In this document: positions 6,046 to 10,403 of the stretch, in pieces | How positions within the stretch are numbered: the stretch's first letter is position 1 | Layout of the letters: every line of letters starts with the position of its first letter | From: a virus | IMG/VR virus record: IMGVR_UViG_3300014497_000026 | Span: 1-25,684 of that record | Length of the DNA stretch: 25,684 nt | Direction: 5' to 3' (one strand) | Notes under the pieces: model-generated | The model's database searches: none | What the model was told of the DNA's origin: nothing | The model's input: only the letters and a program-made list of their open reading frames with translations | Position numbers and translations under genes: made by a program

Positions 6046-7782
6046 TCATTGCACCGCCGTATTCATGTTGCGGACGATTTGTTGGTTGACTTGGTTCTGA
6101 GCCCCACTCACCGCTGTAGCAGTACTGGCGGGGTCGGTGGCACCGTTGACGGTGATGTTGGTCGTCTGGTTGAGCTGAGCAGCCAGGGCCCCGCGCACCG
6201 ATGCTTCGCGCTCCGTATCCTTCGGCCGCTCGTAGTGGCGCGATACAACGGCGCCAGCGTCCTCGGCGTTTTGAGTCGCTTTCAGCAGGTTGCCAGCCTT
6301 CTTTTCCGCCCCTTGGGTCAGTTCGTAATGAACAAACTCAAGTTGCTTCACCAGGTCGGCGCGATCGTCCTTGATATCGAAGCCAGCCCACTTCTCAAAC
6401 TCGCGCTGGCGGTCGTCGTGCCATTGAGCAACACCACGAGCGCGTCCCCAATCACCTCGGGCTTTCGGATCAAAGTTGCTTTCGGTGGCCAGATTGGCCG
6501 TGATGCCGGCGGATTGTTCCTTCGTCCATCCCATCGACTCGAAAAAGTCAGATACGAAGTTCGACTTGTCCTTGTCGACGTCCTGACTTTTTCGCCAAGC
6601 ATCTGCCATCGCACGCTCACGTGATGCCTGTTCCTTGGTCTGCCCCTCATAAAGAGGCTCTCCTTGTTCGTTTACCTGGCCCTCACGCGGGGGTAACCCT
6701 TGTTTCTCCCTGATCTGATCGACAATTTTGTCTTCGCCATCATTCAGCGTGGGCGAGTAAAGCAGAGCAGCAGCACCAGCCAGCGGCGTCAGGATGGCAG
6801 CAGCACCAGAGAGCCCGGCGATCGAGCTGCCCAACCCGAGAAACGAACCAGCCAGCCGTGAAATGCCGCTGACAAGCGATAGCGCACCAAGCGCATTTAG
6901 CAGCCCAAGCAAAACGATAATGCGAGTGCTCCAGCCGTCTGTAGCCTCATCTAGCTTGACGAAGAAATCCCAAATCTTCTGGAGGTACGGCCCCGACTTC
7001 TCGGCGAAATCAATCAGCTTGACCGCGATATCAGCGATCCGATCGGCGATCATCGGGCCGTTCTGCTGGAACCACACCGAAAAGCGCTGCAGGTCAGGGC
7101 CGAGCTTACCCATCAACGCCGCTTGGACCTGTATCGAGAATGTCTCGAACTGCAGCCCGATGCTTCGCAGCACTTCCATGAACGAGTGCGCGTCCTTGGT
7201 GGCTTGGTCTAGACCGCTGTCCTTGAGCTTCTTCCGGTTCTGTTCAAGCTTGGCGCCAAACTTATCGTCCATGGCGGCACGCAACGTGCGCTCATCGATG
7301 CCGAGCACGCCAGCATATTGATTCGCCTGGTACCACGGCATTGCCTTCAGCTTCTGGCCAATGTTGACCAGCATGTCAGCGGTGTCCCGCAAGTTGCCGT
7401 TGGCATCACGCGTCTGAACCCCGATCCCTTTTAGAAAGTCTTCGCCGCCCGGGTTGTCGCGCAGAAATTTGGCAATGCCCTCGATCGAGCCGCGTGCCTC
7501 GTCCGCCGAAGCGCCAAGGTCGCGCGCGGCATACTCGGCAGACTTCAGGCTTTCAGCTGATGACCCAACTCTTTGGGAAGCGAAATACAGCCCCTCAAGG
7601 TTGGATGCGAACGCTGATACACCTGCTGCCACGGTGAGCGATGCGCCAGCAATTACCGTCACCAGCGTGATAACGCTTTTGGTTGCGGTGTCGATACCGT
7701 TTACAAATTCCCTCGAGCCCTTTGGATCAACCTTGAACCCCAGGCTGACCAAGAACTCTTTTATGACGTCTTGATCGGCCAT
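6046..7782 (-). CDS. Tape measure protein with C-terminal tail-tip lysozyme domain
   Basis: A 578-residue tape measure protein. Residues 1-350 are the measuring part: predicted helices, an early hydrophobic stretch (about 37-60), and a long hydrophobic region (about 287-342) of the type thought to enter the inner membrane. Residues about 405-530 match the phage tail lysozyme fold (SNFVSDFFESMGWTKEQ, then ITANLATESNFDPKA, GVAQWHDDRQREFE). E434 in ATESNFD is the likely catalytic acid. The domain would cut peptidoglycan locally during DNA entry. The ATG at 7782 immediately follows the TAA of the chaperone downstream frame (7783), so the cassette is coupled. The protein is short for a myovirus, implying a short tail. 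Confidence 0.9.
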   Translation of the reverse strand: MADQDVIKEFLVSLGFKVDPKGSREFVNGIDTATKSVITLVTVIAGASLTVAAGVSAFASNLEGLYFASQRVGSSAESLKSAEYAARDLGASADEARGSIEGIAKFLRDNPGGEDFLKGIGVQTRDANGNLRDTADMLVNIGQKLKAMPWYQANQYAGVLGIDERTLRAAMDDKFGAKLEQNRKKLKDSGLDQATKDAHSFMEVLRSIGLQFETFSIQVQAALMGKLGPDLQRFSVWFQQNGPMIADRIADIAVKLIDFAEKSGPYLQKIWDFFVKLDEATDGWSTRIIVLLGLLNALGALSLVSGISRLAGSFLGLGSSIAGLSGAAAILTPLAGAAALLYSPTLNDGEDKIVDQIREKQGLPPREGQVNEQGEPLYEGQTKEQASRERAMADAWRKSQDVDKDKSNFVSDFFESMGWTKEQSAGITANLATESNFDPKARGDWGRARGVAQWHDDRQREFEKWAGFDIKDDRADLVKQLEFVHYELTQGAEKKAGNLLKATQNAEDAGAVVSRHYERPKDTEREASVRGALAAQLNQTTNITVNGATDPASTATAVSGAQNQVNQQIVRNMNTAVQ

Positions 7783-8013
7783 TTAATTCTCCAAAGCCCT
7801 GCGCACCCGCTCCTTGTTTTCGGCGCGGACCAGTATCGAATCATTCATTTTTGCGATGTCGGATAGGTCTAGAGTCCCGTCAAGCAGGGACTCATAGCGG
7901 CACATTCCTTCATGGACCGGCATCAGCAGAAAGTCTTCACCGTTGGGCATCTTCGCGAGTTCGACCGTCAGCCCTTGGGAGTGCTCCGGCCGGTAAGCAT
8001 CCCTCGTAAAAAA
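7783..8013 (-). CDS. Downstream (-1) frame of tail assembly chaperone, DUF6889-like, reached by frameshift
   Basis: This frame is open from the slippery site to a TAA at 7783. From an internal ATG at 7950 it would give 55 residues (MPNGEDFLLMPVHEGMCRYE, then LLDGTLDLSDIAKMNDSI). The GMCRYESL and DGTLDLSDIAKMND parts resemble the short DUF6889-type proteins found between tail chaperone and tape measure genes. It lies in the -1 frame relative to the upstream chaperone gene, with no stop from 8007 onward, so a -1 shift at T TTT TTA adds 74 residues to the first 154 of the upstream protein, giving about 228 residues. I see no strong ribosome-binding site at 7950. Expected role is the T-like extension of a G/GT chaperone pair. 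Confidence 0.8.
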   Translation of the reverse strand, partial: FFTRDAYRPEHSQGLTVELAKMPNGEDFLLMPVHEGMCRYESLLDGTLDLSDIAKMNDSILVRAENKERVRRALEN

Positions 8014-8468
8014 GGGCCCAGAGATTCGGTGATGACTCGCACGGCCAGTTTCAGCATAAGCCCAATGTCGATGTCATCGAACATGCAAACATTCTGCTTG
8101 GTGTTCCAGACAGGTGACCACGTGGACCCTTGCTTACGTTGCACGGCTGCTAAACAGGTCGACAAGATGAACTCCGCCGTTTCATCCGGCATCGAGGCGA
8201 TGCCTTCGGCGAATGGCTGCATGAGCTCAGCCAGTGCGCCAAGATCACCGCTCAATGGATTCAGAGCAGCGCCATTGGGCGGAACCTCTGTTGCTACCGG
8301 GTTAGCCTGCTGTGCCGCTTTTGCGGCCTGCGCCGATGCCTCAAGCTTCAGAAATACCGGAATCAGCGTTGGAATCATCGGTGCCACCTTGCGGGAAAGG
8401 TGGAACTGCTGAAAGGCGTTCAGCTTGCCGATTCGGAAGGAATCGGCGCCCAGTTCAAATTCGCTCAT
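7968..8468 (-). CDS. Tail assembly chaperone (upstream, G-like frame)
   Basis: A 166-residue protein (MSEFELGADSFRIGKLNAFQ) with helical, Ala-rich content and the motif NAFQQFHLSRKVAPMIPTLIPV, typical of small tail assembly chaperones encoded between tube and tape measure genes. These bind the tape measure protein and guide tube polymerisation. The ATG overlaps the stop of the tube gene (TGATG at 8470-8466). Codons 152-154 are CCT TTT TTA, a -1 slippery heptamer in the correct frame, followed by a predicted stem-loop, so a minority of ribosomes should produce a longer fusion with the downstream frame. The zero-frame stop is 12 codons after the slip site. Confidence 0.85.
   Translation of the reverse strand: MSEFELGADSFRIGKLNAFQQFHLSRKVAPMIPTLIPVFLKLEASAQAAKAAQQANPVATEVPPNGAALNPLSGDLGALAELMQPFAEGIASMPDETAEFILSTCLAAVQRKQGSTWSPVWNTKQNVCMFDDIDIGLMLKLAVRVITESLGPFLRGMLTGRSTPKG
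7977..8013 (-). promoter_or_regulatory. Programmed -1 ribosomal frameshift signal (T TTT TTA plus stem-loop)
   Basis: On the minus strand the heptamer TTTTTTA occupies 8013-8007 with zero-frame codons CCT TTT TTA, the X XXY YYZ arrangement used for -1 frameshifting. Three bases downstream GGGATGCT (8003-7996) can pair with AGCACTCCC (7985-7977), an eight-pair stem with one bulged C and a 10-base loop that itself contains CCGG repeats. The zero frame stops at 7970-7968 and the -1 frame stays open to 7783. Placement between tube and tape measure matches lambda G/GT. Confidence 0.8.
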
Positions 8469-8908
8469 CAGTAAGTACCAAGGATTGTGTCGATTTTTAT
8501 GGAGTCAAAAACCCACTCGACGATATCGCCGTCTTTCTTGTAGCTCAGGTCCGGCGCCTTCTTGAATGCGCAGCTGCGGCAGCCAGTTGCATCACCGCTG
8601 GCGCTGTTCGTGACTGTGATGACGTTCTGGCCCCACAGCGAAGAACTGAGGCCCTGTGCGTCATACAGGGCCATCAGCTTGGCGTTCGTTGGGGAGGTCT
8701 TGAGATAGCGCAGGGTTACGGTCCCGGACTTTGCGGCGTGCAGCGAGTGCATGCCTTCGCCGTCGGCCCCAGTGAGCATGGTGTTCTTGTCGTCCACCCG
8801 GGAAATCGTAATACCCTCTTCGGCGTTCGCCGAGCCGGCGCCAAGGTCGATTACAGCACCAGCGCCGACCAAAGTCGCGTTTACATCGAGAAAGCTATAA
8901 GTGGTCAT
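8468..8908 (-). CDS. Tail tube protein, DUF3277 family
   Basis: A 146-residue protein that begins MTTYSFLDVNATLVGAGAVIDLG and carries GITISRVDDKNTMLTGADGEGMHSLHAAKSGTVTLRYLKTSP, a recognisable DUF3277 signature. This family is the tail tube (core) partner of DUF3383 sheath proteins. It follows the sheath gene by 16 bases and overlaps the chaperone start by one base. It is expected to polymerise into the inner tube around the tape measure. Call based on sequence signature and on the conserved sheath-tube-chaperone-tape order. Confidence 0.87.
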   Translation of the reverse strand: MTTYSFLDVNATLVGAGAVIDLGAGSANAEEGITISRVDDKNTMLTGADGEGMHSLHAAKSGTVTLRYLKTSPTNAKLMALYDAQGLSSSLWGQNVITVTNSASGDATGCRSCAFKKAPDLSYKKDGDIVEWVFDSIKIDTILGTY

Positions 8909-8924: not shown

Positions 8925-10403
8925 TCAGCGGTTGACGTTGACGATGACGTCGACGAAGTGGACGGCACCGGCCAGTTTGATGGCGATCTGAATTACCGGA
9001 GCCTTGCGTGCTTCGCGATCTGCCTGGGATTGCGTATCGACCGGCGCGGCATAGACGTAGTAGCCCTTCGTGAGGTACTGGCCTGTGGTGATCGCGCCAA
9101 ACGCTGGTCCGCCCCATTGACCTGGTGCAACGAGACCGTTGGTCACAGCCTGATCCAGGCGGGCTTCCAAAGTGGTGACGATCTGGTTGATACCGGCGTT
9201 CGTCTGCGGAACTTTGTTCTGACTGGTGTAAAGCAGGTTGTAGACGGCGGTTTGCAGATCGTTCTGCAGCCAATCAAGGCCATGCACTTCGTCGAAGAAG
9301 TACCCGTTGCACATCACACCTTCCTGGATGATGGCCGTGTCGTTGTTGTAGTTGACGAACACGTTGCAGTTTTTGCCCTTCAGCGCGGAGGCTTGGCCTT
9401 CCGTCAAGCTCTCGGCGGCAATGCCGGGTTCCTGCTTGAACTTCAGGGTGATGGTCGTTTTGTTGCCTTGGAAGTTCACGGTGAATGCCCGACCGAACAT
9501 CGAGGCGGCGGCATACGGCGTAGCGCTTGAGAACTGAGTAAACGTGCGCTTGTAGTTCGCTGCTTTGAGCTTGCTCGCGATGTCCGTGGTGCTGACCGGG
9601 TCGAGCGCCAGTGAATTCTGCGTGGTGTAGCCGAAAATGCGGCTTTGACCGGCCCCCTCAACGTAGGCGGCGGCAGCCAAGACATCAGCCTCGGCCAATG
9701 CTGAATCGGCGACAAGCAAGCCATACCAGTCGTTCGACATGCCGGCGAGGCGCGAAATGGCACTGACAAGGGATTCTGCGATTACACCATTCACCGGTGC
9801 CGAAGCCTGTCCCGATTGCAGACCAAGCAAAGCCGAAACGTCCACGCCACTCGCAGGAACATCTGCATAGCTGATCGTCGAGGTAGCACCGGTAGTTGCA
9901 CTGGTGATCTCGAACCGGCTTTGCGTGGCGTTCCACACGCAGGTGGCTGCGGATGCCAGCTTCGTGGTAATTGCAGACGCCACGCCATTTAGGTTAGTGA
10001 CGCCAGAAAGATCGATTGCAGTCAGGTTCTTCAGCGTGCCGTCGACGGTAATTTTCATACCACCGGCGGTTACCGCAGTGAAGTTGGCCAGGGCTTGCTG
10101 AGCTGCCGACAGCACCGCACCTTTGAGAATCGCAGCAGTAGCAGTTTTCGCCCAACGCCCGATGTAAACGATTGATGGCTGCGGCGACTGACTGAAGAAA
10201 TAGTTACTCGCCAGATATTCAGGGGCAGAGGTGCCGAAATCGCTTTCAACGCCACCAGGCGCGTAGGGCCGCAAGCCCTCACTTACATCGATCACAGGCG
10301 ACGAACCGAGGACCAGCAGCGCGCCAAAATTGCGCGTAGCAGCTGCCTTCGGAGACATGACGATCTGGACGTTCACGACGTCCGAAATGGCAAGAGTCTG
10401 CAT
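8925..10403 (-). CDS. Contractile tail sheath protein, DUF3383 family
   Basis: A 492-residue protein. The start ([20 protein letters not shown]) and the segment [20 protein letters not shown] are typical of DUF3383 sheath-like proteins. The C-terminal third ([46 protein letters not shown]) is the conserved sheath core, ending with a beta strand ([13 protein letters not shown]) suitable for donation to neighbouring subunits. A Thr/Ala-rich region (residues about 115-210) is probably the outer variable domain. Its presence shows that the phage has a contractile tail. Length is normal. Confidence 0.92.

Follow-up and report, generated by a model that had tools for sequence, protein, structure and literature searches.

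A candidate programmed -1 frameshift site joining the tail assembly chaperone and DUF6889 frames of a myophage

The stretch of DNA analysed here (the window, a 25.7-kb virus record of 25,684 nucleotides) very probably contains a myophage tail assembly chaperone gene that is expressed by programmed -1 ribosomal frameshifting. As read from comparative sequence data, most ribosomes would complete a gpG-like chaperone of 166 residues, and a minority would slip back one base while decoding CCT TTT (C_CCT_TTT, 8016-8010), aided by a putative stem-loop six bases downstream. The slipped ribosomes would produce a chaperone-DUF6889 fusion of 228 residues, comparable to gpGT. If lambda is a guide, the short form may coat the tape measure protein and the DUF6889 tail of the fusion may recruit the tube protein. 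Frameshifting in this gene family is not new, since the announcement of Burkholderia phage Magia (MT701587) reports it for the same gene pair (PMC7883833). What our analysis adds is a correction of the slip site and of the spacer, together with a proposed role for DUF6889. This Pfam family, to which no function has been assigned, is likely to be the frameshift-made C-terminal domain of the tail chaperone of a contractile-tail phage. Among named cellular genomes, the closest relatives of the window belong to Pseudomonas.

All features described below lie on the minus strand. The frame-0 ORF (7968..8468, 166 aa) matches the tail assembly chaperone family Phage_TAC_15 (PF21822, E 8.7e-25, 88.1 bits against a Pfam gathering cut-off of 22; phrog_1688, E 6.7e-33). 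The -1 frame read after the slip (7783..8010, ending in a TAA at 7785-7783) matches DUF6889 (PF21829, E 1.9e-15, 56.7 bits against a gathering cut-off of 23.9; phrog_4364, E 1.5e-16). A likely tail tube gene (8468..8908, KPP10_Orf10, PF11681, E 7.5e-56) is the upstream neighbor of the chaperone gene, and in Magia the gene in the corresponding position carries the annotation putative tail tube protein. Beyond it, a tail sheath gene was recognized by profile matches (8925..10403, DUF3383/phrog_205). Downstream, the tape measure gene (6046..7782, phrog_9570 and others) begins with an ATG that adjoins the DUF6889 stop. The chaperone gene is therefore placed between the tube and tape measure genes, and this order supports a chaperone-type frameshift. 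The tape measure protein is short (578 aa), with a phage lysozyme-like domain at its C-terminus (PF18013, E 2.4e-25).

The initial annotation had described the two frames accurately. The heptamer T_TTT_TTA is found at 8013-8007, the frame-0 codons being CCT (8015-8013), TTT and TTA, and the -1 frame has no stop between the slip and the TAA directly 5' of the tape measure ATG at 7782. A slip at TTTTTTA gives a fusion of 228 residues (154 + 74, with 74 codons of the -1 frame after the slip), and a slip at CCCTTTT gives the same length (153 + 75, with 75 such codons). Tryptic peptides are predicted for each product: VITESLGPFLR for the short form (neutral monoisotopic mass 1230.70), VITESLGPFLTR with Leu for the junction made at T_TTT_TTA (1331.74), and VITESLGPFFTR with Phe for the junction made at C_CCT_TTT (1365.73).

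Relatives were found by tblastn and degenerate scans, and loci were gathered from virus and genome collections by their DUF6889 frame and later also by fused forms; blastn with words of 11 against annotated phages returned only 2 short matches. Both domains were scored in 559 loci. The two frames stand in a -1 relation in 553 of them, a count that includes two fetches of one contig (L377 and L428) later recognized as in-frame fusions; these had first been paired with a neighboring chaperone gene and so counted as split loci lacking a slip site. No locus has the frames in a +1 relation, and 6 have a single in-frame ORF. This distribution makes -1 frameshifting of the lambda G/GT type very likely, as had been proposed for this gene. 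It also bears out the proposal that the DUF6889 frame is a hidden C-terminal domain of the kind that is usually missed or taken for a separate gene. Gene finders do lose or misname this frame: the public records of Salmonella phage SEN34 (L579) and Bordetella phage IFTN9 (L578) omit it, and that of Burkholderia phage BgManors32 (L577) lists it as an independent gene. Clustering of the split loci gave 265 clusters. Counts of site motifs refer to 260 or 265 of these, and an earlier set to the first 166.

The conservation of the slip site was followed at the nucleotide level in these clusters. At the junction, 260 of 265 clusters have a frame-0 codon with T at its third position and then TTT or TTC (NNT_TTY), and 5 lack this motif; the site was picked by this same motif, which slightly biases the count, and the clusters are not independent. 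Under local codon usage, NNT in all of the first 166 clusters has a log10 probability of -121, a value uncorrected for relatedness and obtained at a site picked by the same motif. Where the site encodes proline, the codon is CCT in 85/85 clusters (background 15.7%) and the phenylalanine codon is TTT in 80/85 (background 16.8%). The main evidence is this conservation. The raw frequency of TTTTTTA or CCCTTTT in the window is close to that expected. In-frame X_XXY_YYZ heptamers are rare in the other genes of the window (11 in 5117 codons), and three of them overlap within 13 bases at the junction.

Two of these overlapping heptamers could serve as the slip site. The initial annotation named T_TTT_TTA (8007..8013) and missed C_CCT_TTT (8010..8016), at which CCT TTT would re-pair as CCC TTT. 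A slip mainly at T_TTT_TTA, with a three-base spacer to the stem, is possible but somewhat doubtful. The heptamer is perfect and in the correct register, and T_TTT_TTN is present in 122 of the 260 clusters; in 68 of these there is no X_XXT_TTY. However, the refuting condition set by the initial annotation, homologues with both frames but no slippery heptamer, applies to the other 138 clusters, which lack T_TTT_TTN and keep NNT_TTY one codon upstream, so that T_TTT_TTA does not define the site in the family. L016, the relative nearest to the window (97% identical), reads CCCTTTCTTA at the site, as do three further near relatives (L001, L004, L006), and none of the four has T_TTT_TTN. In the 24 clusters whose identity to the window is 65% or more, C_CCT_TTY occurs in 22 and T_TTT_TTN in 16. 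The spacing to the stem points the same way. Stimulatory structures usually begin about 5-9 bases after a -1 heptamer. The spacer measures three bases from T_TTT_TTA and six from C_CCT_TTT (8004..8009), the latter being the spacing found in 67 relatives. The short spacer that had been remarked on was probably an error of register, and the oddity disappears with a slip at C_CCT_TTT. We therefore place the conserved slip core of the window at 8016-8010 instead of 8013-8007 and consider C_CCT_TTT to be probably the main register, although both are present, either may be usable, and T_TTT_TTA is perhaps a second one.

In the family as a whole, a perfect X_XXT_TTY heptamer occurs in 135 of 260 clusters; 54 have both this and T_TTT_TTN, and 57 have neither. 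One tentative reading, which we put forward with reserve, is that the slip determinant is a minimal NNU_UUY core rather than a tandem X_XXY_YYZ heptamer, a core on which tRNA-Phe would re-pair on U_UU with little need for re-pairing of the preceding tRNA. If true, this would explain the free swaps among CCCTTTY, AAATTTT, GCCTTTT and TTTTTTN in relatives, as well as the 57 clusters without a perfect heptamer at the site. In L176, L200, L203, L207 and L209 the junction reads GGA AAT ACT/ATT TTC, which contains a lambda-like G_GGA_AAT heptamer, and the slip site seems to have been moved or replaced in this subgroup. L520, L559 and L558 have CCT TCT (Ser for Phe) or CCC before TTT and keep both frames without an NNT_TTY core.

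A stem-loop follows the slip site at 8003-7977. Its position and its single bulge agree with the initial annotation, which had counted eight pairs where we find nine. Folding energy alone was rejected as evidence for it: the stem has -10.3 kcal/mol, with a z of -1.38 against shuffled sequences, and the 50-nt segment has a z of 0.09. The stem was accepted because of compensatory changes in relatives. In 67 distinct relatives of the N-CCT-TTY type, the 5' arm (GGGNTGCT type) begins exactly six bases past the heptamer, as it does in the window at 8003, and all eight stem pairs form in 56 of the 67. Arm positions 3, 4, 5 and 6 have changes on both sides, for example from G-C to C-G or T-A. The arms were located by best match, which favors pairing, and a control that re-paired the arms of 20 haplotypes used the same search; none of 500 re-pairings scored as well as the true pairs. 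The stem is likely a frameshift stimulator. In several close relatives the minimum-energy fold is predicted to be a different one. The mean energy profile over 166 sites has a local minimum at the stem and a lower one further downstream, within the coding region, and was therefore not used.

The DUF6889 frame could instead encode a separate protein of 55 residues, starting at the ATG at 7950, in which case the overlap would be ordinary gene packing. This ATG (7948..7950) is the first ATG, GTG or TTG in the -1 frame, and BgManors32 is annotated in this manner. We find such an arrangement highly improbable, since the start is not conserved: the position is Leu in 126/166 clusters, and 17/166 lack any start codon from the slip to the YESL motif. 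The segment before it is also under coding constraint. Between the frame-0 stop and the ATG at 7950, differences from 16 relatives number 6 at first, 14 at second and 27 at third codon positions, and this concentration at third positions argues that the segment is translated from upstream. In the overlap region the corresponding numbers are flat (53, 52 and 49, 16 relatives), as expected for two coding frames. In addition, the -1 relation is fixed in all split loci, and in-frame fusions exist in nature. Equally hard to maintain is transcriptional slippage on the run of T as the source of the fusion. The window does have six T in a row, but many relatives with runs of only 3 or 4 T (CCCTTTCTTA, CCCTTTTATC) keep both frames, and the stem is conserved. 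That a single gene was broken by a recent indel or a sequencing error, an idea to which the few in-frame fusions might lend color, is already refuted by the identical -1 arrangement in 553 loci.

The mechanism of the lambda gpG/gpGT tail chaperone is established, according to the summary in PMC5009743 (Levin 1993; Xu 2004, 2013, 2014). As described there, the lambda gene likewise precedes the tape measure gene and yields a short form and a -1 frameshift fusion. Unlike lambda, the window phage has a contractile tail. The Pfam scan of the window gene returned PF21822 and PF21829 only and no lambda chaperone family. The lambda slip site is G_GGA_AAG, whereas the window has C_CCT_TTY/T_TTT_TTN. 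The AlphaFold model of DUF6889 is helical (pLDDT 82) and had no meaningful match in the PDB, so we claim no structural link to gpT. No paper in the literature searched names DUF6889.

Nearer to the window are Magia and Klebsiella phage Mulock (MN098327), which have a homologous two-frame tape measure chaperone with the joined frameshift product annotated. Magia has C_CCT_TTT, although its -1 frame is only 55% identical to that of the window; in Mulock the identity is only 42% and the junction reads AAATTTTTTG. A nearly identical run of C3 and U is found in the tail chaperone gene of Escherichia phage 9g, where a G/T frameshift is reported at CCCUUUUUUU (PMC4276943), but that shift is reported as -2 and the phage is a siphovirus. 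The family could serve as a clean comparative system: nature supplies a single slip site in hundreds of versions, and the same stem accompanies many of them.

Six clusters encode an in-frame chaperone-DUF6889 fusion: L118, L114 and L119 from Methylobacterium, and L324, L332 and L377/L428 from virus contigs. In three of the six, upstream sequence is visible, and all three also carry a separate Phage_TAC_15 gene without DUF6889 (L406, 3704-4204; L407, 4281-4841; L428, 1296-1739). In L428 the short chaperone gene runs straight into the fusion gene (TAATG); in the other two, L406 and L407, the fusion gene is located after the tape measure gene, not before it. The chaperone copies of L406/L118 and of L428 are about 23-24% identical where alignable, and with such divergence they are not recent duplications. 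A few distant relatives thus appear to have replaced the frameshift by two genes, and the separate short gene beside the fusion suggests that both the short and the long form of the chaperone are needed. Separate short and long chaperone genes are described for T4-like phages in the passage of PMC10885494 that cites Vladimirov 2022. The two-gene solution of these distant relatives resembles that of the T4-like phages and would be a further instance in another family (Phage_TAC_15/DUF6889), with other gene orders, whereas the window itself very probably uses a frameshift. With two genes apparently in place of the slip in a few relatives, it becomes directly testable why phages rely on frameshifting and not on duplication. 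In the order to which the Methylobacterium genome G001 belongs, few genomes have DUF6889 (4/397), so the fused lineage is not deeply sampled there. A 13.2-kb contig of Methylobacterium ajmalii (L411) carries two chaperone genes within a single tail cluster, and no DUF6889 was detected on that contig. Two contigs of one assembly (L409 and L410), each of 11,325 bases and with a very high stated coverage, carry related but different tail genes, and could represent either amplified phage DNA or a peculiarity of the assembly.
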